64,000 nucleotides of DNA, taken from Phycisphaerae bacterium (GTDB lineage Bacteria > Planctomycetota > Phycisphaerae > UBA1845 > Fen-1342). The notes below the pieces were generated by a model. That model saw nothing but the letters and a program-made list of their open reading frames with translations, searched no databases and had not been told where the DNA came from. Below are positions 7,397 to 23,691 of the stretch, in pieces. The position numbers were made by a program, and so were the translations under genes. Every line of letters starts with the position of its first letter. Position 1 is the stretch's first letter. The stretch lies in assembly GCA_028279405.1 (NCBI GenBank), contig JANQNU010000010.1, forward strand, positions 1 through 64,000. Reading direction: 5' to 3'.

Positions 7397-8983
7397 CTAC
7401 GTTTTCTTCTTGGTGCTCTTCTTCTTCGCAGCCGACCTGCCCGCACCGCCGGCAGATTTCTTCGAAGCGCCGGCCTTCTCGGACGTCGATTCGCCTTTGC
7501 CGCCCTTCGTCGACTTCGTACTCTTCTTTTTCGGCTTTTCGGCCGGCTCACTGACCTTTTCGATCGTAGCCGTCTCGAGCAGCCGGGCCACGCATTTGTC
7601 GTGCTTGATTTGCTCGGCCAGCTGATACAGCAATCCGTCGCGATGCAGATCGTCCCGAACCCGGTCGAAGCGCTGCCCATATTGCCGCGCAATTCGTGCG
7701 ATCTCGGAGTTCACCTCCTCGTCCCGCACATCCACGTCCAGCTTCTCGGCCACCTTCTCCATGATGAAACCGATCTTCAAATCGCGGGTGACCTGGTCCC
7801 GGGCAGACGTCCGCAACTCGTCGATTTTCGTCTCGATGTCCTGCAACGGGACACCACGCTGCTGCAGATCGACCACCTGACGCATCACCGCCCGGTCCGT
7901 CTGCCGGGCCGATAGATTCTCGGGAAGCTCGAGCTTGACGTTCTCGACCAGGTAGTCCAGCACCTGCTCGCGCTCGGCACGGCGCGTCAGCGTCTCACGC
8001 TCCGCCCCCAGATCGTCCCGAATGAAGCTGCGCAGCTCAGCCTCATCCTCTGCGCCCGCCTGCGAAATGACCGCCTCCATCGCCGCCGGCTCCAGCCGTT
8101 TGAGTTCACGGACGGTGAAGGTGAACGACGCGTTCTTGCCGCGCAGATCGGTTCGCTCGTAGTCGTCGGGGAAGACCGCCTCGGTCTTGACGGTCGCGCC
8201 GACTTTCGCGCCGCCAAACTTCTCCGCCAGATCGAGCAGCGGAATTCCATCCAGTCGCGTCGGGCGAACGCCGAGCTGGACATTGCTCTCGCGCTTGATC
8301 TCGTTGCCGTCACTCTCGATCAGCACGTCCGCCATCAGCATATCGTCGGCCGCTGCCGCCGCCCCGTCACCTGCAGGCTGATACCGACCACGGATCTTTC
8401 GCAGACGCTCGATCTGCTCCGCGACCATCTCATCGGTGATCTCCACCACCGGCGAACGTACCGGAATCCCGTCGAGCGCAGGCAACTCGAACTCAGGCTT
8501 CAGCTCCACTTCAACGGTGTAGCTGAAATCACTGTCAACCGGCAGACTCAACGCCGTCAAGGCCGTGTTGATGTCGACCAGCTTGCCGCCTTCTTCGCTC
8601 GTCACACTGAACAGCGGGTCGCCCAGCACATCGAGCTTCTCGTTCTCCACCGCCGCAAAATAGGATTGGCCGATGATGCTCGATTTGAGCGAATCGCGAA
8701 CCTCACCGCCAAACCGCTTCTCCACTAGCTGGCGCGGCGCACGCCCCCGACGAAAGCCCGGCACGACGGCGTCGGTCACCAACTCCTCGTAGTTGTGCTC
8801 CAGATGGTCGGCGATCACTTTCGCCGGGACGGTGATCGTCAACGCCTTGCGCAACGTACCGATATCGCGTGCCTCGGCTTGGACCGCCTTCTTCAGATCC
8901 TCCAGCAACTCCTCGGCGCGCTTGTCGGCCTTGTCACGAAGTGCGGAGTCACCCATCGCTCCCGCCACACCCGGAATATCCAT
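7397..8983 (-). CDS. tig: Trigger factor (ribosome-associated chaperone and peptidyl-prolyl isomerase)
   Basis: A 528-residue trigger factor, which binds the ribosome at uL23, shields nascent chains and isomerises Xaa-Pro bonds. The ribosome-binding signature GFRRGRAP is at residues 76-83, later than usual because of a roughly 40-residue N-terminal extension rich in charged residues; the FKBP-like domain and the helical C-domain follow. The last 50 residues are a Lys/Ser/Gly-rich tail (for example KPKKKSTKSTKGGKGESTS) not found in E. coli Tig (432 aa). GGAG lies 7 nt before the ATG at 8983; an in-frame ATG at 8956 would remove part of the extension. It heads the tig-clpP-clpP unit. Confidence 0.95.
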   Translation of the reverse strand: MDIPGVAGAMGDSALRDKADKRAEELLEDLKKAVQAEARDIGTLRKALTITVPAKVIADHLEHNYEELVTDAVVPGFRRGRAPRQLVEKRFGGEVRDSLKSSIIGQSYFAAVENEKLDVLGDPLFSVTSEEGGKLVDINTALTALSLPVDSDFSYTVEVELKPEFELPALDGIPVRSPVVEITDEMVAEQIERLRKIRGRYQPAGDGAAAAADDMLMADVLIESDGNEIKRESNVQLGVRPTRLDGIPLLDLAEKFGGAKVGATVKTEAVFPDDYERTDLRGKNASFTFTVRELKRLEPAAMEAVISQAGAEDEAELRSFIRDDLGAERETLTRRAEREQVLDYLVENVKLELPENLSARQTDRAVMRQVVDLQQRGVPLQDIETKIDELRTSARDQVTRDLKIGFIMEKVAEKLDVDVRDEEVNSEIARIARQYGQRFDRVRDDLHRDGLLYQLAEQIKHDKCVARLLETATIEKVSEPAEKPKKKSTKSTKGGKGESTSEKAGASKKSAGGAGRSAAKKKSTKKKT

Positions 8984-9147
8984 CGCCTAACTCCATTCTC
9001 TTGCCGCTAAACGCGGCGAACACTCGACCGTCGATCGAAGCGTCGCCCGATCGAGATGCAACCACTGCGCGGCCACGATCACAACCAATACGCCTTCACG
9101 CCCCCCCCACCAACCGCGACCGGCAAGCACACCGTCCCACCGCCCAG

Positions 9148-9309
9148 CTAGGCCGGCGTACCCAAGAACAGCGAGACCAGTGCCGAAAAAAGCACGGAAA
9201 GAAAGCTCGTCAGCACCTGCGAGAAGTTGATCAGGTCAAACGACTGGGCAAGCCCGAAGAGCGCACCGCCCGATGCCATCGTCGCGACCGATTTGTTCCA
9301 CCGCTTCAT
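9148..9309 (-). CDS. Possible small membrane-associated protein (53 aa)
   Basis: The ATG at 9309 has GGAG 8 nt upstream and opens 53 codons ending in TAG. The peptide starts MKRWNKSVATMASGGALFG and continues with a hydrophobic C-terminal half (SQVLTSFLSVLFSALVSLFLG), giving one or two membrane-like segments. I recognise no family. The frame stays open upstream to 9501 but that part reads as non-coding. It sits between tig and the large Cys-rich gene, with no visible partner. Real or chance is not decided by the sequence; the good ribosome site and hydrophobic pattern favour a real gene. Confidence 0.45.
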   Translation of the reverse strand: MKRWNKSVATMASGGALFGLAQSFDLINFSQVLTSFLSVLFSALVSLFLGTPA

Positions 9310-9740
9310 CTGATTGACTCCATGGAATCCAACACACCTGCACGAGCACAATACCCAGACGCAGACCGCGCACGTCGAGGTTACGCTGCACGAAACTTCG
9401 AGCAAGCCACCGAGCAACATGATCGCGAAGCAACGCGCCTCTACCTGCACCCATAGCGCAGAAGCCGCCACCGACCGATCACCTACGGATCGTGCCCGCA
9501 ATACAGCCCATCTACCGTAGCGGAGCGGCAGCCCCTGTCAAGCAGCCCCCAGGCGATCGCCCGCCGGCAAAACAGTGGCCCGATGGGGGGCGTGCCGAAG
9601 AGCACTATCGCTCGATCCCCCCAGAAAGAGCACCGCTCCCGACCCGAAGGCCGAGAGCGGTGCAGGTCATCAAACGGGTGAATCACCCGCGAAGACCAGG
9701 TCGACGAGAACCCGCCGACCCGACTCGCGTTGTGAATCAC
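9310..9740. other. Intergenic region with 3' terminator block
   Basis: No convincing gene. From 9621 onward it holds the 3' untranslated region of the Cys-rich gene that ends at 9741, with two hairpins, and this part is almost identical to the region at 12863-12983. The 9310-9620 part shows nothing I can name. Confidence 0.6.
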
Positions 9741-9770
9741 TTACGGCGTGCAAGGCGTGCCGCTCGTCAC
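9621..9770. repeat. 3' end/UTR repeat of the Cys-rich paralogues, copy A
   Basis: 150 bp matching 12863-13013 with one substitution (9648 versus 12890) and one single-base indel. It includes the terminator hairpin, a second small hairpin (CGGGTGA-A-TCACCCG) and the last codons of the gene. Confidence 0.85.
9630..9663 (-). terminator. Rho-independent-type terminator of the first Cys-rich gene
   Basis: On the minus strand the arms GCACCGCTCTCGG and CCGAAGG/GTCGGGAGCGGTGC pair (perfect outer 9 bp GCACCGCTC/GAGCGGTGC), followed by TCTTTCTGG. It lies about 80 nt after the stop codon. The T-run is short, so efficiency is uncertain. Confidence 0.65.
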
Positions 9771-12713
9771 CGCGGTCACGAAGTCATTGATGTCACCCAC
9801 AGTCACATTGCTGTCACCGTTGGTGTCATTGGCACATACGAAATCGCACGGCGCCACGCCACCCGGGAACAACGCGTTCCAGGCAGCCTCACCACCCGTG
9901 ACCGCAGCCACGAAGAAGTTGATGTCGCCAACCGTTACGTTGCCGTCGCAGTTCGAGTCCGCGCAGGCACCGCAGTTCGACCCGCCGCTGACCGACAACT
10001 GGTACTCGGCACCGGTCGCGCAGCAGATCTCCGGGTTCGTGGCGAAGTTCGGTGCCACGAGGATGACGAAGTCACCCTGAACCGGACCGGTCACGGTAAT
10101 CGTCGCCTCCGTGCACGCCGTCGTGACCTGCTGCTCAACCAACGGAATGGCGTCACAGTCAGCGATCGGCGTGCCGGTCGCCAGGACCGCGAACTGCGCC
10201 GAAAACTCGGCATTCAGCGTGATCACCAGATCTTCCGCCTGGTCGACACCCGCAAGAGCGTACCAGTCCGTGTCGCGGGTACCCTGCTCGAGCGCCGTGG
10301 TTCCGCAGATCTTCTGACCCGTCGAGATCGCACTGAAGTTCTGCGGCTCGGGATCCGAGGCGCAACCGTTGTTGAAGGTGTCATCGAAGTCGCAGGCCGA
10401 CAGGTCTTCACCCTCGGCGTCCGCGTCTCCATCACAATCGAGGTCGCACTGCGCCGGTTCGTCACAGACGCAAAGCGCATCGCAGTCGACACGCAGGCGA
10501 TACGTTCCCGGACACGGGACGCTGACCGGAACATTGATCCGGACCTGCGGCCCGACCACGACGTACACGGTACCGCCCGGTGCCGGGATATCGACCGTAC
10601 CACAGACACTGCCACCTTCGACTGGCGTCGCAAAGCCGACGATTTCCCCAGCACCGAAGTTGCAGTCGCCGTTGAAGTCGATCAAGACGATCACGACACC
10701 CGGGAAATCAACCTCTTCCAGCTGGACGCGGAGCGGACCAGGCGTAGCCGTCAAACGGTACCAGTCGAGGTTACGACTGAACGCCGCCCCGGGACCAGCA
10801 CCCGACTCACCACGGGTCGTACCGCAGACCACTGCCGGGCAAGAGATGTCGCTGTACGTCGCCGGCAACGGCGGATCCGAGGTCGGACCATTGCAACCGA
10901 TGTTGATGTCGTCCTCGGGAGCGTCACCACAGTTCGGCTCATTCTCCGGCGTGCAGCTCTCGCAGACGACGCTGCCACAGAGAACGCCCTGGTTGAACAG
11001 GCCGTTCATCTCACCGCAGTCGGTCTGCGTGAGTTGCTGGCAGCTGCCATCCGGCAAGCAGCAAGCACCGGCACAAGGCGTTCCCGCACAGGTCGTGTCC
11101 GGGCCGCTGAAGATGCCACCCAGGAATTCGAGGCACTCGCATTCACGGACGCCGTCCACACAACCGGTCGGCGTGCAGCAGGAACCGGTCGGCGAATCGC
11201 CGCAGTCCGCATCGCAAGACACGCTCAGACGATAGGACGTCGGGCACGGCGTATCATGCTCCACGGTGATCGACGTGCTGACGAAGATGTAGTGAACACC
11301 GGCCGAGAGGCACAGCGTGCCACAAACGTCGGTGGTGCCGTCGGACACGCCGACGAGCGTAGTCGCGAGATTGTCGCACGGAGCGCCAGGGTTCGGAGGC
11401 GTGATCTGGAGGACCACCGCCGGGAACGCGGCGTCCGTCAGTTCAACCCGAACGACCGTATCCGCCACCAGGTTGAGACGGTACCAGTCCGTGTCGCGGC
11501 TGAAGGTGCCCGTCGGCCCCATGCCGTCGGAATCACCGCGGATCGAGCCGCAAATCGTGTCGTCACACTGGATGTCGACGAAGACCGCCGGCGTGACGTT
11601 GCAACCGCCATTGATGGTGTCGAGCGGGTCACCACAGTCGCTCTCACCCTCGACCAGGCACGGCTCGCAGACCTGACCGGCGCAGCTGCTTCCACCGCCG
11701 AAGTACAGGCCGGATTGAGCTCCGCAATTCTGCTGCGAGACACCCTCCATGCACATTCCACTAGGCAGGCAGCAAGCACCGGCACACTCCACACCCGTGC
11801 AATCGGTACCGTTGCCGAGATAGATGCCACCCATGTTCTCACAATCCGGACGGTTCTCCACGGCGCACGTGCCATCCGCCATGCAGCAGCCACCCGTCGG
11901 ACAGACGTCACAGGAAGCGACGCCGATGTAATCCGAACAGGCAACACCTTCGAGAGGATTCGCGCCGACATTGTCCGGATCGCTGGCAGCAGCAAACAGG
12001 ACGTACGGCCGGTCGCCAGCCAGGCAATCCGAAACCGACACGGCATCACCCGGAGCACCACTGGCAGCCTGCAGAATCGTCGTGCTCGCGCAAGGATCGA
12101 AGCCGTCGTCCAGCTCGATGATCAGCGCCGTCACGAAGAACTCGGCCGTCACCGTCCAGGTGTAGAACGTCGTCTCAGACGGAATCACCAGATACCAGTC
12201 GGTGTCGCGAGTGCCGCCACTTGCCCCACTTTGACCACACACCGTCACGCCACAGTCGACATTCGTACTGAACGCCAGGGCAGCGGTGTTGCAACCCGAG
12301 TTGAAGCCGTCCGGCTGAGCGCACGGTCCCGGCTCGCCTTCCTGGACGGCGCCGGCAGGGCACTGACCGTCGAGAACGACACAGGCCGCCGCGAGGCAGT
12401 CCGTACCAGCACCAAAGTAAATGCCGTTCGCTGCTTCGCACGCTTCCGGCGACTGACCGTCGGTGCACTGACCGGTGGTCTGGTCGCAGCAAGCACCCGG
12501 AGCGCCTTCACCAAGCTCGACACTCGGCGCAACGCGATCGCTGTAGTCAGCGACGATGCCAGAAATGAACGTGCTGTCCGACACCGCGCTAACACGCGAA
12601 TCGGGTACACCACGCTGTAAACAACTCCCCAAATTCGGCTCGACAGGTGCAGCGGCCATCGCGCCGTTGCAGAGCCAGATACTAAGTCCCGTGAAACTGA
12701 AGATCGTTCGCAT
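9741..12713 (-). CDS. Secreted Cys-rich modular protein with C-terminal dockerin-type repeats (copy A)
   Basis: About 990 residues. The ATG at 12713 is chosen because AGAGGA lies 5 nt upstream and it opens a signal peptide (MRTIFSFTGLSIWLCNGAMA). The body alternates two modules: Cys-rich knots of pattern GxCCxxxGxC...C...GGxYxGxGTxCxxxxC (for example GACCLPDGSC), and beta-sandwich units marked by CG....G.RDTDWY, resembling bacterial pre-peptidase C-terminal domains. The end has two calcium-loop repeats, DSNCDGNVTVGDINFFV and DTNGDSNVTVGDINDFV, typical of type I dockerins. Likely exported and held at the cell surface or in a protein complex. A paralogue lies immediately upstream. Cohesin partner and function are unknown. 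Confidence 0.88.
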   Translation of the reverse strand: MRTIFSFTGLSIWLCNGAMAAAPVEPNLGSCLQRGVPDSRVSAVSDSTFISGIVADYSDRVAPSVELGEGAPGACCDQTTGQCTDGQSPEACEAANGIYFGAGTDCLAAACVVLDGQCPAGAVQEGEPGPCAQPDGFNSGCNTAALAFSTNVDCGVTVCGQSGASGGTRDTDWYLVIPSETTFYTWTVTAEFFVTALIIELDDGFDPCASTTILQAASGAPGDAVSVSDCLAGDRPYVLFAAASDPDNVGANPLEGVACSDYIGVASCDVCPTGGCCMADGTCAVENRPDCENMGGIYLGNGTDCTGVECAGACCLPSGMCMEGVSQQNCGAQSGLYFGGGSSCAGQVCEPCLVEGESDCGDPLDTINGGCNVTPAVFVDIQCDDTICGSIRGDSDGMGPTGTFSRDTDWYRLNLVADTVVRVELTDAAFPAVVLQITPPNPGAPCDNLATTLVGVSDGTTDVCGTLCLSAGVHYIFVSTSITVEHDTPCPTSYRLSVSCDADCGDSPTGSCCTPTGCVDGVRECECLEFLGGIFSGPDTTCAGTPCAGACCLPDGSCQQLTQTDCGEMNGLFNQGVLCGSVVCESCTPENEPNCGDAPEDDINIGCNGPTSDPPLPATYSDISCPAVVCGTTRGESGAGPGAAFSRNLDWYRLTATPGPLRVQLEEVDFPGVVIVLIDFNGDCNFGAGEIVGFATPVEGGSVCGTVDIPAPGGTVYVVVGPQVRINVPVSVPCPGTYRLRVDCDALCVCDEPAQCDLDCDGDADAEGEDLSACDFDDTFNNGCASDPEPQNFSAISTGQKICGTTALEQGTRDTDWYALAGVDQAEDLVITLNAEFSAQFAVLATGTPIADCDAIPLVEQQVTTACTEATITVTGPVQGDFVILVAPNFATNPEICCATGAEYQLSVSGGSNCGACADSNCDGNVTVGDINFFVAAVTGGEAAWNALFPGGVAPCDFVCANDTNGDSNVTVGDINDFVTAVTSGTPCTP

Positions 12714-12862: not shown

Positions 12863-13013
12863 CCAGAAAGAGCACCGCTCCCGACCCGAGGGCCGAGAGC
12901 GGTGCAGGTCATCAAACGGGTGAATCACCCGCGAAGACCAGGTCGACGAGAAACCCGCCGACCCGACTCGCGTTGTGAATCACTTACGGCGTGCAAGGCG
13001 TGCCGCTCGTCAC
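12863..13013. repeat. 3' end/UTR repeat of the Cys-rich paralogues, copy B
   Basis: The partner of 9621-9770, differing by one substitution and one inserted A. Similarity weakens immediately inside the coding sequence and then returns as an identical tract of about 85 bp over the first dockerin repeat. Confidence 0.85.
12872..12905 (-). terminator. Rho-independent-type terminator of the second Cys-rich gene
   Basis: Same hairpin as at 9630-9663: outer arms GCACCGCTC/GAGCGGTGC with TCTTTCTGG following on the minus strand, about 80 nt after the stop at 12984. It separates the two paralogues transcriptionally. Confidence 0.65.
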
Positions 13014-15908
13014 TGCGTTGACGAAGTCGTTGATGTCACCGACGGTAACGTTGCTGTCACCATTGGTGTCATTCGCACACACGAAGTCGCACGGCGCCAC
13101 GCCACCCGGGAACAGCGCGTTCCAGGCAGCCTCACCACCCGTGACCGCAGCCACGAAGAAGTTGATGTCGCCAACCGTTACGTTGCCGTCGCAGTTCGAG
13201 TCGCCGCAAGGACCGCAGTTCACACCGCCACCGATGGTGAGCTGGTACTCAGCACCCGGGCAGCAGATGTCTGCGTTCGCACCGAAGTTCGGCAACACGA
13301 TGATGATGAAGTCGCCCATGACCGGGCCGGTCACGGTGACATCCAGCGGCGTGCACGGCGTCGTCTGACCCGAAGCGGCAACAGGAATGTTGTCGCAGTC
13401 GGCGATCGGCGTGCCGCTGGCGAGGATGAACACGTCCGCGACGAACTCGGCGTTGACCGTGATGGTCAGATCTTCCGCCTGGTCGACACCCGCGAGGGCG
13501 TACCAGTCGGTGTCACGGGTGCCGGTCTCGAGAGCGGTCGTGCCGCAGATCTTCTGGCCGAGCGAGACGTTGCTGAACGCCTGCGGCTGGCCATCCGGAA
13601 CGTTGCAACCACCATTGAAGGTGTCGTTGCCGAGGTCGCAACCCGAGAGGTCTTCACCTTCGGCCATCGCATCGCCATCGCAGTCGAGGTTGCACTGCTG
13701 CGGCTCATCGCAGACGCAAGGCAGGTCGCAGTCGACGCTCAGACGATACGGGGTCGGGCACGGCGTGTCGTGCGCCACAGTCGTGGAGGTCGACACGAAC
13801 ACGATGTGCGTACCGGCGGCGAGATCGACGGTGCCGCAAGCACTGTCTGCACCAGCCGCATTGGTGATGACCGAAACGACGGTCGGACCCGGAGCGACGC
13901 AGTCATTGCCCGGATCGGTGATCACGAGCGCGACGGCCGGGAACGAGAGATCTTCAAGCACGACCCGCAGGCTCGTCGGGGCGGCCAGGTTGATCTGATA
14001 CCAGTCGGTGTCACGGCTGAAGCCGCCGCCACCGTCCGCGTTACCCTGGATGGTGCCGCAGATGGTCTCGCCGCAAGAAACGCTACCGTAGGCCGGCGGC
14101 GTCTGGTTGCAACCACTGTTCGTCTGCGGGTTACCGCAGTTCGGCTCACCTTCGGCCGAGCACGGCGTGCAGGTGACGTCCTGGCACTGCACCGCACCGC
14201 CCTGGAAGATACCGTTCATCTCGCCGCAATCGGCCTGGGTGGCCTGGATGCAGCTCGCGTCCGGCAGGCAGCAAGCACCGGTGCAAACGACGTTCGCACA
14301 CGCGGTACCGAGACCGTTGAAGACACCGCCGAGGAAGTCGGCGCACTCGCAAGCCGTGACGTCGTCGACGCAGCCGGCGCCCGTGCAGCACGAGCCGGTG
14401 TCGCCACAGGTGTCGTCACAGGTGACGCTCAGACGATAGGACGTCGGGCACGGCGTGTCATGCGCCATGGTCGTCGACGTGCTGACGAAGATGTAGTGGG
14501 CGCCGGCCGAGAGGCACAGCGTGGCGCACAGGTCGGTCGTGCCGTCGGTGGTACCGACGAGCGACGTCGCGAGGTTGTCGCACGGGGCGCCAGGGTTCGG
14601 CGGGGTGATCTGCAGGATCACGGCCGGGAACGAGGCGTTCGTGAGCTCAACGCGGACGACCGTATCGACCGCCAGGTTGATGCGGTACCAGTCCGTATCA
14701 CGGCTGAAGCCACCCGCACCGTCGGCGTTGCCTTCCATCGAACCGCAAACCGTGTCGTTGCACTGGATGTCGAAGAAGGCCGCCGGCGTGCTGTTGCAGC
14801 CACCGTTGATGGTGTCGACCGGCATACCGCAATCGGTTTCGCCTTCGACCAAGCAGGGCTCGCAGACCTGACCGGCGCAGGTGCTACCGGCACCGAAGTA
14901 CAGACCCGACTGGTTACCGCACTCCTGCTGCGAGAGACCTTCCTGGCAGGTGCCGCTCGGCAAGCAGCAAGCACCGGTGCAAGTCGCGCCCGTGCAATCC
15001 GTGCCATCACCGAGGTAGATACCGCCAGCGTTCACACAGTCCGGACGCTCGTCGACGATGCAGCTGCCATCGGCCAGGCAGCAACCGCCGGTGGCGCAGG
15101 CGTCGCACGAGGCAACACCGATGTAGTCGGCACAGGCAACGCCTTCGCCGACGATCGCACCCAGGTCATCCGGGTCGGTCGGAGCGGTGAACAGGACGTA
15201 CGGGGCATTGCCGGCGAGGCAATCCGTAACGGTCACGGCATCACCGGCGACACCGTTGGCCGCCTGCAAGGTCGTGGTATTCGCACAGGGGTCGAAACCG
15301 GTGTCGAGTTCGATGATGAACGCAACACAGGCATACTCGGCCGTAACGGTCCAGGTGTAGGCCGTCGTCTCGGACGGAATCACCAGGTACCAGTCCGTGT
15401 CGCGGGTGCCGCCAGTGGCTCCACCCTGACCGCAGACCGTCACACCACAATCGACGTTCGTGCTGAACGCCAGGGCGGCGGTGTTGCAACCCGAGTTGAA
15501 GCCGTCCGGCTGTGCGCACGGGCCGGGCTCGCCTTCCTGGACGGCGCCGGCGGGGCACTGACCGTCAAGCACGACACAGGCCGCCGCGAGGCAGTCCGTA
15601 CCGGCACCAAAATAGATACCGTTGGCTGCTTCGCAAGCTTCCGGCGACTGGCCATCGGTGCACTGACCGGTGGTCTGGTCGCAGCAGGCACCCGGAGCGC
15701 CTTCACCAAGCTCGAGGCTCGGCGCGACGCGATCGCCGTAATCAGCGATGATGCCAGCCGAGTACGTGCCGTCCGACACCGCGCCAATACGCGAATCGGC
15801 CGAGCCAGCCTGGAAAAAGCTTCCGAAGGCCAGATCGACCGGTGCAGCGGCGTAGGCGCCGGTACACAGACACATACAAAGTGCTGTGAAACTGAGAATC
15901 TTTCGCAT
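12984..15908 (-). CDS. Secreted Cys-rich modular protein with C-terminal dockerin-type repeats (copy B)
   Basis: About 974 residues, paralogue of copy A and upstream of it on the same strand. The ATG at 15908 lies in the same GAGAGGAAACCT ribosome-site context and opens a signal peptide (MRKILSFTALCMCLCTGAYAA). The first ~110 mature residues and the C-terminal dockerin pair (DSNCDGNVTVGDINFFV, DTNGDSNVTVGDINDFV) are nearly identical to copy A, whereas the central RDTDWY/beta-sandwich modules differ, including a third module with GGGFSRDTDWYQINLAAPT. Cys-rich knots such as GACCLPDASC and GGCCLADGSC recur. It is likely secreted and surface-attached. Recent duplication followed by central divergence or conversion of the ends would explain the pattern; function is unknown. 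Confidence 0.88.
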   Translation of the reverse strand: MRKILSFTALCMCLCTGAYAAAPVDLAFGSFFQAGSADSRIGAVSDGTYSAGIIADYGDRVAPSLELGEGAPGACCDQTTGQCTDGQSPEACEAANGIYFGAGTDCLAAACVVLDGQCPAGAVQEGEPGPCAQPDGFNSGCNTAALAFSTNVDCGVTVCGQGGATGGTRDTDWYLVIPSETTAYTWTVTAEYACVAFIIELDTGFDPCANTTTLQAANGVAGDAVTVTDCLAGNAPYVLFTAPTDPDDLGAIVGEGVACADYIGVASCDACATGGCCLADGSCIVDERPDCVNAGGIYLGDGTDCTGATCTGACCLPSGTCQEGLSQQECGNQSGLYFGAGSTCAGQVCEPCLVEGETDCGMPVDTINGGCNSTPAAFFDIQCNDTVCGSMEGNADGAGGFSRDTDWYRINLAVDTVVRVELTNASFPAVILQITPPNPGAPCDNLATSLVGTTDGTTDLCATLCLSAGAHYIFVSTSTTMAHDTPCPTSYRLSVTCDDTCGDTGSCCTGAGCVDDVTACECADFLGGVFNGLGTACANVVCTGACCLPDASCIQATQADCGEMNGIFQGGAVQCQDVTCTPCSAEGEPNCGNPQTNSGCNQTPPAYGSVSCGETICGTIQGNADGGGGFSRDTDWYQINLAAPTSLRVVLEDLSFPAVALVITDPGNDCVAPGPTVVSVITNAAGADSACGTVDLAAGTHIVFVSTSTTVAHDTPCPTPYRLSVDCDLPCVCDEPQQCNLDCDGDAMAEGEDLSGCDLGNDTFNGGCNVPDGQPQAFSNVSLGQKICGTTALETGTRDTDWYALAGVDQAEDLTITVNAEFVADVFILASGTPIADCDNIPVAASGQTTPCTPLDVTVTGPVMGDFIIIVLPNFGANADICCPGAEYQLTIGGGVNCGPCGDSNCDGNVTVGDINFFVAAVTGGEAAWNALFPGGVAPCDFVCANDTNGDSNVTVGDINDFVNAVTSGTPCTP

Positions 15909-16534
15909 AGGTTTCCTCTCCAACAAGAAACGACGTGACTGAATCAATTGCACAGTTGCAACCCGCCATAATGGGCTTAACGATCTACGAGTGCGCATAG
16001 AAAGCGCCAATAGTCGAGGCTGATTGGTCCTCCTTCGCCCTCCTCCCGATGTAAATAAGCCGATAAGGGCGAGTCAATACACCGCGCAAGCTACACGGTG
16101 TCACCAGGTGAGCGGCCCTGTCCTCGCCGAATCAATATCCGTGAAAAGCGATGTTTACGCGCATCTCCCAGCCGCAAACATTTAGGCGCAACCGGCCTGC
16201 TCGCTTCTCACCCTTACACTATCCATGAATATCGCGGCCACCCCCCCGTTGTCAAGGTTTTTGATGCCCGATTTTCACAAACATAACTCCAGGTTCCTCC
16301 AAGAGTTATAGAGTCCGATACACCGGGAGCGGTCACCGATCACCCTAGCCGACACATCGGGCGCGACCTAACGCCAGCCCACCTAAGCATTTCCGTCAGC
16401 TCCGCAGCACAGGCCGCCGCCGAACCCAGACCGATACGCAATCCACCCCCAATATCCACCGACCAACTCACAACAAGAGATCGACGTCTGATAACTATCA
16501 GGCCCGTTCGTCCACAACAATTGCCGTCGCAACA
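15909..16534. other. Intergenic region upstream of the Cys-rich gene pair
   Basis: No gene seen. It shares short words with the region upstream of copy A (CCTCTCC...CGTGACTG...CACAGTTG and CCTCCTCCCGA) and carries the promoter candidate at 16226-16255. The part 16280-16534 shows nothing I can name. Confidence 0.6.
16226..16255 (-). promoter_or_regulatory. Sigma70-type promoter candidate for the Cys-rich gene
   Basis: On the minus strand a consensus -35 TTGACA (16255-16250), an 18-nt spacer and TATTCA as -10 (16231-16226). It would give a leader of about 310 nt before the ATG at 15908. Confidence 0.45.
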
Positions 16535-17281
16535 CTACCTCTGGTCGTTGTCCCCTTTGGCGCGGTCCTTCTTGTTGCGGTTACTCCCCGCGGACTTGTT
16601 CCGTGTCAGGTCGGTTACGCGGACCCCTTCAGGCGGTTCGTAGCGAAATCGCTCCCGACGTAGCGGCGGGTCGACGCGAACGTCACTCCAGACCGTTTCC
16701 CGTGCAACTGCGCCATTTGCCCCAATCCCAACGACCTTATGCGGGACGCCGAGCTTCGCGAAGACGAACAGGCGGTGATGAGTGATTGCCGATCGCGTCC
16801 CGGTTGCTTTCAATTCGAAGACGTGCACCTTCTTGCCGTCCACCTTCTCGTCCGGCAACAGCCCGACTTCCGACTGTCGCAGACGTCCGAAAAGCGATTT
16901 GATGTCGAATGGGTTCTGGAACGCGCCGGGCACGTAGGGCTGCTTGACCACGGAAGTCTCGCCGCCTTGGGTGGTCGCCGTGTGGACGTTCTGCCCGTCG
17001 AACACGATCACCATGCTCCGGAGGGGCTTCTTCTCGTCGTTGGCGAAGGTCTGCTGCTCGCCACGAAAGTACCACTTCTTGCCCTGGCGCAGGGCCTCGA
17101 CCTTCAGCACCGAGCGCGCGCGTAGGTTGTTGGCACCGACCACCTGGTCCGTGGTCATTGTGTACGCCAGGGCCCGGTGTTTATCCAGCGCCGCCTGAAG
17201 ACGATCGATCACGGCCTTCGAATCGCGATCCGTGGAAGCCGGGAGCAAGGCCGCCGTACTCAATACCGCAATGAACAACAT
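16535..17281 (-). CDS. Exported LolA-like (outer-membrane lipoprotein carrier fold) protein
   Basis: A 248-residue protein with AGGAGG 9 nt upstream of its ATG and a short signal peptide (MLFIAVLSTAALLPA). The pattern of beta strands and phrases such as YTMTTDQVVGANNLRARSVL, GKKWYFRGEQQTF and VIVFDGQNVHTAT resembles the half-barrel of LolA/LolB and DUF2092-type periplasmic proteins. The C-terminal 30 residues are a basic, Asn/Lys-rich tail (RNKSAGSNRNKKDRAKG). It is expressed divergently from the phosphatase-cytochrome fusion. The fold assignment is by eye and tentative; binding of a lipid or lipoprotein is inferred only from the fold. Confidence 0.6.
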   Translation of the reverse strand: MLFIAVLSTAALLPASTDRDSKAVIDRLQAALDKHRALAYTMTTDQVVGANNLRARSVLKVEALRQGKKWYFRGEQQTFANDEKKPLRSMVIVFDGQNVHTATTQGGETSVVKQPYVPGAFQNPFDIKSLFGRLRQSEVGLLPDEKVDGKKVHVFELKATGTRSAITHHRLFVFAKLGVPHKVVGIGANGAVARETVWSDVRVDPPLRRERFRYEPPEGVRVTDLTRNKSAGSNRNKKDRAKGDNDQR

Positions 17282-17425: not shown

Positions 17426-17449
17426 CGTGGTCATCGGTTGGAGGTTTGC

Positions 17450-18442
17450 TTGTCGAAGATCGGAATGATTCGGACCTTGGGTCGCCTTCGGACCGCCTTC
17501 GTCGTGATCCTGACCACGGGCTGCGTCACGAGTTGTCGGACAGTCCCGGCCGAGCGCCCGTCAAACTTGGCCGCAAAGGCCTTGGGCGAGGGTCGACGAG
17601 TCGTTTCTCACGCCGGGATTCACAACGTGCTGCCCGTTGCGGACGGGCTCATCAGCGGATCGGTGCCCGAAGGGGAGGACGGCTTCCGGACCCTGTCTCA
17701 GCTGGGGATCCGAACAATCGTCTCGGTCGACGGCGTGACACCGGACGTGGCGGGTGCGCGACGGTATGGGATGCGGTATGTCCATTTTCCGGTCGGCTAT
17801 GACGGTATCGCGCGGCAGCGCCAGCTGGAGCTTGCCCGCGCGGTGCGCGATCTGCCCGGGCCGGCGTACGTCCATTGTCATCATGGCCGGCATCGCGGAC
17901 CGGCGGCCGCCGCTTCTGCGGCTGTCGCACTCGGTCGGCTGAGGTCGGCCGCTGCCCTGGCGTTCATGCGGCGTGCCGGCACGTCCGATCACTATCACGG
18001 ACTCTACGACAGCGTCGCTTCCCTGGCACCAGCCAGCGCGGACGCGCTCGCGGCAGTTCCGGACGACCTGCCCGAGATCGCACCGCTCCCGGGGTTTGTG
18101 AAGGCGATGGCGAGTGCCCAGCAGATCTACGATCGCTTGGCTGAGATTCGCGACGCCGACTGGCACACGCCGGCGGACCACCCAGACCTCGTCGCGGTCA
18201 ACGAAGCCGGTCGGCTGGAGAACGTTCTGCGTGCACTGCGCGACGACGCCCGTACGCGTACGGCCCCCGTCGGGTTTCAGGAGATGATGCGATCCGCGCA
18301 TGACGCGGCACGGTCGCTCGAGGCCGCGATCGCTACAGGGGCACCGCCACGCGCGTTGACGGCCCGACTCGGGCGCCTGCAAGACTCCTGTCGAGCGTGT
18401 CACGTGAGCTACCGTGATCGGTCTTCGGCGATCCCCCAATAG
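17450..18442 (+). CDS. Exported HCX5R phosphatase-like domain fused to a C-terminal cytochrome c motif
   Basis: About 330 residues. The TTG at 17450 is chosen because GGAGG lies 5 nt upstream; ATG 17465 and TTG 17438 are alternatives. The N-terminus is a signal peptide, with TTGCVTSC offering a possible lipobox. Residues about 45-190 form a dual-specificity/tyrosine phosphatase-like domain: GIRTIVSVDG, then the P-loop HCHHGRHRGP (142-151), an exact HCX5R signature. Residues about 255-330 look like a four-helix class II cytochrome c: FQEMMRSAHDAARSLEAAI and the haem-binding CRACH at 314-318, close to the C-terminus as in cytochrome c'. Both halves should be periplasmic. I know no standard family with this pairing. 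Confidence 0.82.
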   Translation: MSKIGMIRTLGRLRTAFVVILTTGCVTSCRTVPAERPSNLAAKALGEGRRVVSHAGIHNVLPVADGLISGSVPEGEDGFRTLSQLGIRTIVSVDGVTPDVAGARRYGMRYVHFPVGYDGIARQRQLELARAVRDLPGPAYVHCHHGRHRGPAAAASAAVALGRLRSAAALAFMRRAGTSDHYHGLYDSVASLAPASADALAAVPDDLPEIAPLPGFVKAMASAQQIYDRLAEIRDADWHTPADHPDLVAVNEAGRLENVLRALRDDARTRTAPVGFQEMMRSAHDAARSLEAAIATGAPPRALTARLGRLQDSCRACHVSYRDRSSAIPQ

Positions 18443-19489: not shown

Positions 19490-20872
19490 TTACAGCTCCT
19501 CGAAGCGGGCGGTGAAGTGTCGCAGGACCGGCGGCTCCTCGACGATTCGCAACCCGCGGAGGGCGTCACGCATGGCGGCCACCTCGCCGACGGCTTCGGC
19601 CACGTAGTCCATGTGGCTTTGTGTATAGACGCGGCGCGGAATCGTCAGCCGAACGAGCTCGAGCCGTTGATCCAGGGGCAATGCGTGCGGACCGGGTTGG
19701 ACCCCGCCGAACATGACGGTCCCGATCTCGACGGCACGAACGCCTGCGACACGATACAAGCCGCAAACGACAGCTTGCCCGGGAAACTGCTCCGGGGGAA
19801 TGTGCGGGCACAGCGCGCCGGCGTCGATGTACACCGCATGGCCTCCCGGTGGCTCCATGATCGGAACGCCCGCGTTTCGGAGCTGCTCGCCGAGATACTC
19901 GACGCTTCGAACACGGTAGGCCAGGTAATCTTCCTGGACGACCTCGTCGAATCCCTGAGCCATTGCCTCGAGATCGCGGCCGGCCAACCCGCCGTAAGTC
20001 ACGTATCCTTCGGTCAGAATGAGCAGATTGCTCGCCTGCTGAAACAGGTCCTGATCGCGGAGCAACAGCAGCCCGCCGATATTCACGAGCCCGTCCTTCT
20101 TCGCACTGATCGTGGCGCCGTCAGCGAGGGCGAACATCTCCTGCACGATCTCTCGGACGCTGCGGTCGGCCATACCCGGCTCGCGCTGCTGAATGAAGAA
20201 CGCGTTCTCCGCAAACCGGCATGCGTCGAGGAACATCAGAATTCCGTGCTCATCACATACGGCCCGCACGGCCTTAAGATTTTCGAGGCTGACGGGCTGT
20301 CCGCCGCCGCTGTTGTTCGTGACGGTCACCATGACCACAGGAATGCGACTCGCGCCGACTTCCGCGATCAGTGCCCGCAGTGCATCCACGTTCAGGTTGC
20401 CCTTGAATGGATGAGCGACGCCGGGCACACGGGCGGCGGAGATCGGCAGGTCGACCGCCTCGGCGCCGGAGTGCTCGATATTGGCACGCGTCGTGTCGAA
20501 GTGGGCGTTGTTGGGGACTACTTGGTCGGGTCCGCCGAGGAGTTCGAACAGGATGCGCTCGCTGGCTCGGCCCTGGTGCGTCGGTAGCACGTGATCGAAT
20601 CCGAACAATTCCTGGACGCGTCGCTCGAAATGATAGAAGCTTGGCGAGCCGGCGTACGACTCGTCGCCGCGCATCAGCCCGGCCCATTGCTGGGCGGACA
20701 TGGCACCCGTGCCGCTATCGGTCAGCAGGTCGATCACCACGTCGTCGGCGTGGATCAGAAACGCGTTGTATCCCGCGTTGCGCAAGATGCGCTCGCGTTC
20801 CGCGCGGGTGGTCATCCGGATCGGCTCGACACTCTTGATTCGGAACGGCTCGATCATCGTCTTCATCGGCAT
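19490..20872 (-). CDS. tnaA: Tryptophanase (L-tryptophan indole-lyase)
   Basis: 460 residues, PLP-dependent beta-eliminating lyase that converts tryptophan to indole, pyruvate and ammonia (EC 4.1.99.1). The PLP lysine is Lys259 in ISAKKDGLVN, and LTDSGTGAMS, PTHQGR and the C-terminal LTIPRRVYTQSHMD are family landmarks. Two columns separate tryptophanase from tyrosine phenol-lyase: here Asp126 (HFDTTR, Asp137 in E. coli TnaA) and Ile383 (AVEIG, Ile396 in E. coli) are of the tryptophanase type. AGGAG precedes the start, with ATG 20872 (3-nt spacer) or ATG 20866 (9-nt spacer) possible. It begins 50 nt after the paralogous phenol-lyase gene and is probably cotranscribed with it. Confidence 0.93.
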   Translation of the reverse strand: MPMKTMIEPFRIKSVEPIRMTTRAERERILRNAGYNAFLIHADDVVIDLLTDSGTGAMSAQQWAGLMRGDESYAGSPSFYHFERRVQELFGFDHVLPTHQGRASERILFELLGGPDQVVPNNAHFDTTRANIEHSGAEAVDLPISAARVPGVAHPFKGNLNVDALRALIAEVGASRIPVVMVTVTNNSGGGQPVSLENLKAVRAVCDEHGILMFLDACRFAENAFFIQQREPGMADRSVREIVQEMFALADGATISAKKDGLVNIGGLLLLRDQDLFQQASNLLILTEGYVTYGGLAGRDLEAMAQGFDEVVQEDYLAYRVRSVEYLGEQLRNAGVPIMEPPGGHAVYIDAGALCPHIPPEQFPGQAVVCGLYRVAGVRAVEIGTVMFGGVQPGPHALPLDQRLELVRLTIPRRVYTQSHMDYVAEAVGEVAAMRDALRGLRIVEEPPVLRHFTARFEEL

Positions 20873-20922: not shown

Positions 20923-22323
20923 TCAATCTCGCAGCACACGGTCGCCGGTAACCGGTTCGAAGCGGGCCTGGAAGAATCGCAGGAACTCCGGCTCATAGGT
21001 CATTTGCAGGCCGACGACCCGCTCGCGGTGACGATGCAACTCAGCGACGGACTCGATGACGACATCCATGTGTGCCTGCGTGTACACGCGTCGCGGAATG
21101 GTCAGCCGTACGAGTTCGAGCTCGGGGTAAAGCGACTGGCTGGTTTCCTTGGAGCGGCCCGCGGAAACCGCTCCGCGTTCCATACCCCGCACGCCCGAGT
21201 CGACGTAAAGGGCAGCGGCGAGTGATTGGGCGGGAAACTGGTCGCGCGGCACGTGCGGAAGGAACGCGGCCGCGTTGAGAAACACGCCATGGCTGCCGAT
21301 GGGCCGCACGATCGGCACGCCGGCCTCGAGCAGCTTGCGACCCAGGTATTCGACCTGGCCGATTCGCGCGTGTTGGTGCGCCCACGAAACCGACTCTTCG
21401 ATTCCGATGGCGAGGGCTTCCATGTCGCGGCCGGCCATCCCGCCGTAGGTGTGCAGCCCCTCGTAGACGACAACGAGATTGCGCGCCCGGGTCGCGAGCG
21501 TGTCGTCATTGATCGCGAGGAAGCCGCCGATGTTGACGAGTGCGTCCTTCTTCGCAGAAAACGTGCAACCGTCCGTCTGATCGCAGATCTCACGCAGAAT
21601 CTGCGAGAGCGTCTTGTCGCGATAGCCTGGCTCGCGCTGCTGAATGAAGTAACAGTTCTCGAGCGCCCGCGTTGCATCGAGAAACACGGGAACACCGTGC
21701 GCACGGCAGAGCGCGCACGTGGCCCGGATGTTCTCGAGACTGCATGGCTGGCCCCCGGCCATGTTGACGTTGGTCTCCAGCGACAGGTACGCGATCCGCT
21801 CGGGCCCGACGTCGTCGATCAGCTTCTGCATCTTGGCCAGATCGACGTTGCCCTTGAACGGGTGCTCGTTCTCGGGGTCGTGTGCCTCGTCGACGATCAC
21901 GTCAACGAATTTGCCGCCGGCCAGCTCCTGGTGCAACTTCGTGGTGGTGAAGTACATGTTGCCGGGAACGACCTGCCCCTCGCGGATGCACAACTGGCTG
22001 AGCAGGTGCTCGGCGCCGCGGCCCTGATGGGTCGGAATGAGGTGTTTGTATCCGTAGTGTTCCCGGACGGCGCGTTCCAGCCGATAGTAGTTCTCCGAGC
22101 CGGCATACGCCTCGTCGCCGCGCATCAACCCGGCCCACTGCACGTCACTCATCGCGGACGTTCCCGAATCGGTCAGCAGATCGATGTACACCAGCCGGCT
22201 CGGCAGCAGGAACGGGTTATACCCCGCCTCCGCGATCGCCCGCCGCCGCTCTTCAGGCGTCGTCATCCGCAGATGCTCGACCATCTTGATCTTCCACGGT
22301 TCGGCCCACGCACGCCGGCTCAT
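20923..22323 (-). CDS. tpl: Tyrosine phenol-lyase
   Basis: 466 residues, the PLP- and potassium-dependent lyase that splits tyrosine into phenol, pyruvate and ammonia (EC 4.1.99.2). The PLP lysine is Lys259 in FSAKKDALVNIGG. The residues that set phenol-lyase specificity in the Citrobacter enzyme are present: Thr126 in MYFTTTKLHQE (Thr124) and Arg383 in GMERGAVSAGR (Arg381), where the neighbouring paralogue has Asp and Ile. YEPEFLRFFQARFEPV closes the protein as in known phenol-lyases. AGGAG lies 6 nt before the ATG. Upstream gene of the tpl-tnaA pair; together they would let the cell use aromatic amino acids as carbon and nitrogen source. Confidence 0.92.
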   Translation of the reverse strand: MSRRAWAEPWKIKMVEHLRMTTPEERRRAIAEAGYNPFLLPSRLVYIDLLTDSGTSAMSDVQWAGLMRGDEAYAGSENYYRLERAVREHYGYKHLIPTHQGRGAEHLLSQLCIREGQVVPGNMYFTTTKLHQELAGGKFVDVIVDEAHDPENEHPFKGNVDLAKMQKLIDDVGPERIAYLSLETNVNMAGGQPCSLENIRATCALCRAHGVPVFLDATRALENCYFIQQREPGYRDKTLSQILREICDQTDGCTFSAKKDALVNIGGFLAINDDTLATRARNLVVVYEGLHTYGGMAGRDMEALAIGIEESVSWAHQHARIGQVEYLGRKLLEAGVPIVRPIGSHGVFLNAAAFLPHVPRDQFPAQSLAAALYVDSGVRGMERGAVSAGRSKETSQSLYPELELVRLTIPRRVYTQAHMDVVIESVAELHRHRERVVGLQMTYEPEFLRFFQARFEPVTGDRVLRD

Positions 22324-22455: not shown

Positions 22456-23451
22456 CTAACGTGAACCCGGCGTTCTGGCGTGTCGGGCCGTGCGCCAGCG
22501 TGGGTACAACTCGCGTGCGGCGGCCGGCCATTCGGGATGGTCGAACGTGAAACCGTGCGCGAGCAAGCGGCCCGGGACCACGCGGCGGCTCTTGAGCACC
22601 AGTTCGGTCTCCGTTCGCATAAACCACGCGCCGATCTCGAGCATCCAGCGCGTTGCCGGCAGTCCAATCCGCACGCTCGCCGCGTCGCGCAACGCTCGCA
22701 TGAACGCCGCGTTCGGCGACGGCGCCGGCGACGCCAGATTGACCGGCCCTGCGATGTCGTCGCGATCGATCAAGAACCGTACGGCCCGCACGAAATCGGT
22801 CCCGTGGATCCACGACACGTATTGTCGCCCGTCGCCGGCGGGGCCTCCGAGCCCCTTTCGAACGAGACCGACCAGCACGTCGAAGATGCCGCCGGGATCC
22901 GGGCTCATCACCATCGCCGACCGTAGTGCGACCTTACGAGTGTTCGGCGTGTCGGCCTCTGCGAGCGTTTCCTCCCAGACCCGCGCGACGTCGATGCTAA
23001 ACCGCCAGCTCGAAGGGACGCCCGGCTCGGCGCCGCCGATGATGCCGGTGTGCTCGTCGTTGGGGGCATCGTAACGGTGAGCGTAGATCGTCGCCGTGCT
23101 GGCCTGCAGCCAAACGCGCGGGGGATTCGCAACCTGCTGAATCGCTTCGGCAAGGACACGCGTCGAATCCACCCGCGATTGGCGGATCTGGTCGCGGTTC
23201 GCCGCTGTGTAGCGGCAATTGACGCTACGACCCGCGAGATTGATGACGACATCGGCGCCATCCAGGGTATGGATCCAATCGCCAAGCGTCCGGCCGTCCC
23301 ACAACACATCCATCGACGATGCGGCGGGCAAACCGCCCGGCGGCTTACGCCGTAGCCGAACGATCTCCGACGCGAAGCCACCAGCCGTGCCGAGTTCGCT
23401 GCACAGAATATGGCCTAACTGACCCGACCCACCGGCGATGACGATCTTCAT
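22456..23451 (-). CDS. TIGR01777-family NAD-dependent epimerase/dehydratase-like protein
   Basis: 331 residues from the ATG at 23451. The N-terminal Rossmann motif is [16 protein letters not shown], followed by [22 protein letters not shown] and a substrate region with [16 protein letters not shown], characteristic of the TIGR01777 (YfcH-like) extended SDR group; the C-terminal 50 residues ([24 protein letters not shown]) match its DUF1731 tail. The usual YxxxK pair is not evident in the expected place, as in many YfcH homologues. The substrate is unknown for the whole group. It is upstream of tpl by 130 nt on the same strand and divergent from the SDR gene at 23692. Confidence 0.88.
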
Positions 23452-23691
23452 CGGGGTCCCCAACCGGTTCGAGACACGTACGCCACTGCTCAACTCTTAT
23501 CGAATCGGGCCACGCCGACCGCTACTGCGAACGATCCAGGTTATTGTGGTTTCACGATGCATGCGCGACCAAGCGCGAAAAACCGGGCAAAAATGAGCCA
23601 CCTGGGAAACGTGCGGAGGGTCGACGACATCCAACCCCTCAATCCGGCGAGAAGATCGCCCGCTGAACCTGACAAACGAAGGGAGCAATCC

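Follow-up and report, generated by a model that had tools for sequence, protein, structure and literature searches.

A single gene of a Phycisphaerae bacterium encodes a dual-specificity phosphatase (DSP)-type domain joined to a class II cytochrome c domain with a predicted covalent haem site, and comparison of its relatives identifies this fusion as a real family, conserved across the phylum Planctomycetota. Our favoured reading is that the product is a phosphohydrolase anchored in the envelope and that the haem it carries sets its activity; we give this reading a probability of roughly 0.4. If it is true, the fusion would tie phosphate chemistry at the cell envelope directly and physically to the condition of the respiratory chain, through a single-copy conserved protein found in about a third of the sampled planctomycete genomes and carried by cultivated species. 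To our knowledge, periplasmic phosphorylation in bacteria is little understood, and few such phosphatases have been described from that compartment; we know of none that carries haem.

The Gene and Its Predicted Export Signal

The gene lies in the window, i.e., the whole stretch of 64,000 nt analysed here, in which a single open frame at positions 17438–18442 of the forward strand carries both motifs, HCHHGRHRGP (17873–17902) and CRACH (18389–18403). It is present in one copy in the source genome. Alternative TTG starts are possible at 17450 or 17438, but the ATG at 17465 is likelier than the TTG at 17450, since the basic stretch, the hydrophobic segment and the lipobox-like VTSC then sit right at the N-terminus. 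The features are:

17465..18442, forward strand: whole gene for the DSP-cytochrome c fusion, 325 residues from the ATG start; 15 and 78 full-length relatives aligned
17465..17536, forward strand: predicted lipoprotein-type signal peptide with lipobox-like VTS-C24, read from the sequence (Cys codon 17534–17536)
17603..18061, forward strand: predicted DSP/PTP-fold phosphatase-type domain, residues 47–199 (AlphaFold; Foldseek/VIA)
17729..17731, forward strand: D89 of the SVDG motif, in 76 of 78 members
17801..17803, forward strand: D113, which pairs in the alignment with Asp105, TpbA's proposed general acid; 45 of 78 members have Asp here
17873..17896, forward strand: P-loop HCHHGRHR, H137–R144; C138, G141 and R144 in 78/78 members, H137 and H143 in 77/78
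17891..17893, forward strand: H143, in the loop place of the water-activating His155 of AtPFA-DSP1, from loop alignment by position (PMC9038691)
18083..18427, forward strand: predicted class II cytochrome c four-helix bundle, residues 207–321 (PF01322; AlphaFold; Z 13.2 with cytochrome c')
18107..18109, forward strand: M215 of helix A, probable sixth (distal) haem ligand, in 78/78 members
18389..18403, forward strand: CRACH, predicted covalent haem-binding motif (C309, C312, H313); CxxCH and R317 in 78/78 members

Read from the ATG, the protein opens with MIRTLGRLRTAFVVILTTGCVTSC, i.e., a short run of basic character, then a hydrophobic segment, then the lipobox-like VTSC, and for this reason it is probably a lipoprotein. 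A loose lipobox-like pattern was matched in 42 of the 78 members. The earlier note on this DNA had taken the protein to be exported, and the predicted N-terminal signal bears this out.

Distribution and Joint Conservation of the Two Domains

The full-length fusion occurs in 13 of 60 near genomes. A single-protein scan of genome contigs gave one further match outside those, on a 7 kb contig titled Abditibacteriales that is possibly a stray planctomycete contig. A profile built from 15 full-length members retrieved the fusion from 137 of 392 Planctomycetota genomes (~35%), in 95 out of 267 genera, and all of the fusion genomes but one hold a single copy. The search for the same fusion in other planctomycetes, which the earlier note had called for, thus shows that it recurs. 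Two copies are located on plasmids of cultivated planctomycetes, where they are annotated as “dual specificity protein phosphatase” and “hypothetical protein”; the cultivated carriers are Aquisphaera giovannonii (WP_148599161.1) and Planctomyces sp. SH-PL62 (WP_068422821.1). Among viral contigs, no relative was found.

This recurrence bears on the possibility of an artefact, i.e., that CxxCH and HCX5R are chance motifs in a misread frame or were brought together in a chimeric contig. High G+C does keep spurious frames open, and nothing else speaks for such an origin, whereas independent genomes, including the finished plasmids of cultivated species, show the identical full-length architecture. 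With that recurrence, and with CX5R and CxxCH kept in all 78 aligned relatives, we reject the artefact as wholly improbable.

The arrangement had also been proposed as new. An incomplete search of the open-access full-text literature yielded no paper describing the fusion; within that literature, both domains are of known kinds and only their combination stands as new. The arrangement is not peculiar to this genome.

Residue counts were taken from 78 aligned full-length members. Thirteen residues are invariant (P68, G81, H107, P109, Y112, C138, G141, R144, M215, C309, C312, H313 and R317), while H137, H143, Y177, G179 and L180 are kept in 77 members and D89 and H140 in 76. Since C138, R144, M215, C309, C312 and H313 are invariant in these 78 members, drawn from many families of the phylum, the pattern argues that both putative centres are kept together under selection, and against one half having decayed.

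In all complete loci of the family examined, the C-terminal cytochrome domain is present. Phosphatase-only appearances are due to contig ends (genomes G201, G272 and probably G252), and the cytochrome end proved to be present after all behind the apparent phosphatase-only hits in G440, G436 and G256. Locus L140 (genome G061) carries a frameshift: its phosphatase half stops early and a CAQCH end lies in another frame, as in a pseudogene or an assembly error. L141 (G192), with the loop HCKNGKHRS, is a possible phosphatase-only relative without the cytochrome bundle. The most divergent member, L134 (G330, about 7983–9977, reverse strand), has the loop TCETGRDRA; it has lost H137 and H143 and retains the Cys, the Arg and CxxCH. 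Short, exported, lipoprotein DSP-like paralogues with CX4R loops (L025, L027 and L030; loops HCSGGNRAG and HCAGGSRAG) share genomes with full-length members, and these paralogues reach the PF04273 and PTP-NADK cut-offs.

The C-Terminal Domain as a Class II Cytochrome c

The window protein scores 28.1 bits with PF01322 (class II cytochrome c), for which the cut-off is 26.5; of 75 relatives, 69 match this family at E ≤ 0.01. Folded alone by AlphaFold with 75 relatives, the cytochrome half is modelled as a four-helix bundle with a pLDDT of 95. Foldseek E-values for the bundle were weak, as expected of helical bundles (best 0.04 for cytochrome c' 1cgn, with NaxLS second). Cytochromes c' came first in the VIA ranking (Z 13.2, 108 residues; NaxLS 12.9), and the sequence profile of the domain matched them at E 2e-7. 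Pentatricopeptide-design and BRIL-chimera hits among the PDB profile and fold matches were dropped as helical look-alikes. The predicted identity of this half as a class II cytochrome c is decisive only when the fold match, the sequence profile and CxxCH are taken jointly. The class II cytochrome-like helical end with CRACH read earlier from the sequence is thus upheld by a Pfam match above cut-off, a modelled bundle and an invariant CxxCH. The fold search named at that time as a means of refutation gave a phosphatase fold for the N-terminal half and placed the haem motif inside the folded four-helix bundle.

With class II cytochromes c (cytochrome c', c-556) and cytochrome b562 the domain shares the four-helix bundle and a C-terminal CxxCH with an Arg after it; in the fusion, however, the bundle is the C-terminal domain of a phosphatase-type protein. 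Cytochrome c' has an open haem face, whereas the fusion family has an invariant Met on helix A, M215, the sole invariant residue of that helix. Judged from the ends of the VIA ranges, not from residue-level superposition, M215 (model residue 12) falls on residue 7 in the cytochrome cb562 rows (model 6–114 on 1–106) and on residue 32 in the NaxLS rows (model 6–118 on 26–132). Residue 7 of cytochrome b562 is what we take to be its methionine haem ligand, Met7; residue 32 of NaxLS is mutated in entries 6r6n and 6r6o, and the distal position there is presumably Cys, not Met, as the entry titles also indicate. NaxLS (Kusta0087/0088), from anammox planctomycetes, resembles the fusion domain in its bundle fold, its occurrence in Planctomycetota and a ligand-type residue 32 on helix A, but it is an NO-binding heterodimer (PMC11897245) with no phosphatase domain. 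On these sequence and model comparisons, the haem of the fusion is probably six-coordinate (Met/His) as in cytochrome c-556, not of the gas-binding cytochrome c' kind, and would therefore be electron-transferring rather than gas-binding.

A c-type haem requires the cytochrome c assembly machinery. PF01578 (cytochrome c assembly) is present in all 137 fusion genomes versus 344 of 392 overall (P 2e-10, ignoring phylogeny); this co-occurrence is consistent with the predicted c-type haem but is confounded by phylogeny.

The N-Terminal Domain: A DSP Fold with an Unorthodox Centre

AlphaFold models the whole protein, at a mean pLDDT of 89, as a DSP fold followed by the four-helix bundle. By VIA, the N-terminal half compares best with VHZ (Z 16.5, rmsd 2.6 over 141 residues), TpbA (Z 15.7 over 155 residues) and Siw14 (Z 15.6). 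TpbA is also the best sequence match in the PDB, at E 1.4e-4 over residues 65–195 with the single protein (phmmer) and at E 8e-10 with the family profile. In Pfam, this half matches weakly. The commonest matches are PTP-SAK and Tc-R-P (PF22784 and PF22785; 13/15 and 10/15 members), families that are defined on other domain partners, and for the window protein both stay below cut-off. It has no match at E ≤ 1 to PF03162 (Y_phosphatase2), matched by 2 of 15 members at E ≤ 0.01, or to PF04273 (BLH/DUF442-type), matched weakly by 6 of 15 (best E 0.0017); its NCBIfam matches are all far below cut-off (e.g., NF040641, E 0.006). With the modelled DSP fold (VHZ, TpbA) and the HCX5R loop, the earlier assignment of this half to the tyrosine/dual-specificity type stands; a classical tyrosine phosphatase is not to be assumed, given the unorthodox centre.

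The loop has the length CX5R in 78/78 members and most commonly reads HCHHGKHR. The residue following the loop Arg is Gly in 46 members, Ser in 30 and Ala in two, but never Thr; the window protein has Gly and so lacks the Ser/Thr usual at this place in the PTP/DSP superfamily. It does have D113, which aligns with TpbA Asp105, proposed to act as general acid in that enzyme (PMC4409338). Position 113 is N, S, R, K, H, A or G in 33 members; in 30 of these an acidic residue lies no more than six positions away. The phosphatase centre predicted from the alignment is thus unorthodox, with a general acid that is not family-conserved and Gly or Ser in place of Thr after the Arg.

TpbA (PA3885) of Pseudomonas aeruginosa is likewise a periplasmic or exported DSP, and its loop HCKHGNNR resembles HCHHGRHR; it differs as a single-domain protein without haem, with Thr after the Arg, with a general acid that the fusion family does not conserve, and without the SVDG and GTxxxYxGLY motifs that the fusion family has. 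The inositol pyrophosphate phosphatases AtPFA-DSP1 and Siw14 (Z 14.7–15.6) are cytosolic, eukaryotic and without a haem domain. The loop of AtPFA-DSP1, HCKRGKHRT, shares the GKHR core with HCHHGKHR; this enzyme uses no amino-acid general acid, its WPD-loop acid not being obligatory, and its loop His155 activates water (PMC9038691). Its Thr157 after the Arg, which is catalytically important, is Gly or Ser in the fusion family, and Asp191, the partner of its loop His, is not conserved there. From the shared GKHR core and H143, a pyrophosphate-like or small, highly charged substrate appears, by analogy, at least as likely as phosphotyrosine.

As D113 is lost in 33 of 78 members and Gly follows the Arg in 46, phosphatase activity may be weak or absent, although AtPFA-DSP1 and VHZ show that the DSP fold works without the usual Asp (PMC9038691). 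The same two departures would suit a pseudo-phosphatase that binds a phosphorylated ligand without hydrolysis and signals to the cytochrome. Pseudo-phosphatases usually lose the Cys or the Arg, however, and here C138, the nucleophile, does not vary in 78/78 members, nor does R144; both persist even in the divergent L134, so we regard this as quite improbable.

Alternatively, the protein could be a redox enzyme in which an oxyanion, or a thiol or sulfane sulfur species, binds at the CX5R loop, C138 forms the covalent intermediate and the haem exchanges electrons. PTP-type loops have been recruited for arsenate reduction, a predicted covalent haem is tied here to a reactive-Cys loop, and the family departs from phosphatase residues at positions 113 and 145; the weak PF04273 and NF040641 likenesses given above, the first to the BLH domain, which we take to be linked to sulfur transfer, could also be read this way. 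Rhodanese-type sulfur-transfer loops are CX4R. The sulfur-transfer version loses ground because the fusion loop is always CX5R, the phosphatase length, whereas the exported CX4R paralogues pass the PF04273 cut-off. One haem, moreover, carries one electron at a time, and no sulfur or arsenic genes recur in the neighbourhoods of the family. We find a redox enzyme rather unlikely.

Possible Coupling of the Domains and Proposed Mechanism

The pTM of the whole-protein model, 0.80, is near the maximum reachable with ~45 disordered residues, and therefore suggests a fixed mutual placement of the DSP and cytochrome domains. This matters for the case that both halves are active but uncoupled, the cytochrome serving for docking or electron relay and bringing the phosphatase close to a respiratory complex, or vice versa. 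Small electron carriers of the class II cytochrome type are common, and the cytochrome half is the less conserved one (31% mean pairwise identity vs 45% in the phosphatase half), both of which fit such an arrangement; no split fusion was found among the complete family loci examined, with G192 as one possible exception, and the likely rigid packing of the model suggests more than co-location. We consider uncoupled halves unlikely.

We return to the envelope-anchored phosphohydrolase set by its own haem, for which the following steps can be proposed. The fusion protein would, with good reason from its N-terminus, be exported, held by a lipid anchor and turned towards the periplasm. One haem would then be attached at CRACH by the cytochrome c assembly machinery; H313 would lie below the iron and M215 above it, so that the iron would very probably be six-coordinate and suited to electron transfer, not to binding NO, CO or O2. 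The DSP domain would attack a phosphoryl group via C138, the group being held by R144. In members without Asp113, either the substrate itself or an acid in a nearby loop could supply the proton, and H143 would activate water, as proposed for AtPFA-DSP1. With such chemistry, the substrate would more likely be small and highly charged, or pyrophosphate-like, than a phosphotyrosine protein. More speculatively, the haem, carried on a domain packed rigidly on the DSP domain, might sense the redox state of the electron-transfer chain in the periplasm and protect or switch the reactive Cys or its loops. The most specific form of the proposal, a periplasmic phosphatase in which a six-coordinate haem, tethered covalently, gates the catalytic Cys, as a one-protein redox-to-phosphate switch across Planctomycetota, is tentative and somewhat doubtful.

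Gene Neighbourhoods

Over 75 loci of the family, no recurring neighbour family was found beyond generic groups (ABC ATPase, AMP-binding enzyme); the 54 operon-like neighbours belong to unrelated Pfam families. No conserved neighbour hints at a substrate or partner, which counts against our favoured reading. PADLOC found nothing. In the window, the gene is flanked by an exported protein (16535–17281, reverse strand), a DUF4870-like membrane protein and two beta-eliminating lyases. On the SH-PL62 plasmid pPL62-1 (L136, 8006–10966), the fusion lies ~2 kb from a cytochrome c oxidase cluster and a DUF3365 gene, a single case.

The two lyases of the window, at 19490–20872 and 20923–22323 on the reverse strand, are adjacent paralogues (PF01212, tryptophanase-like), and after this pair comes an NAD-epimerase/DUF1731 gene at 22456–23493. 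A 1008-residue exported, Cys-rich repeat protein with a PPC domain and a dockerin-like C-terminal end (GDSNCDGNVTVGDIN...) is encoded at 12984–16010 on the reverse strand.
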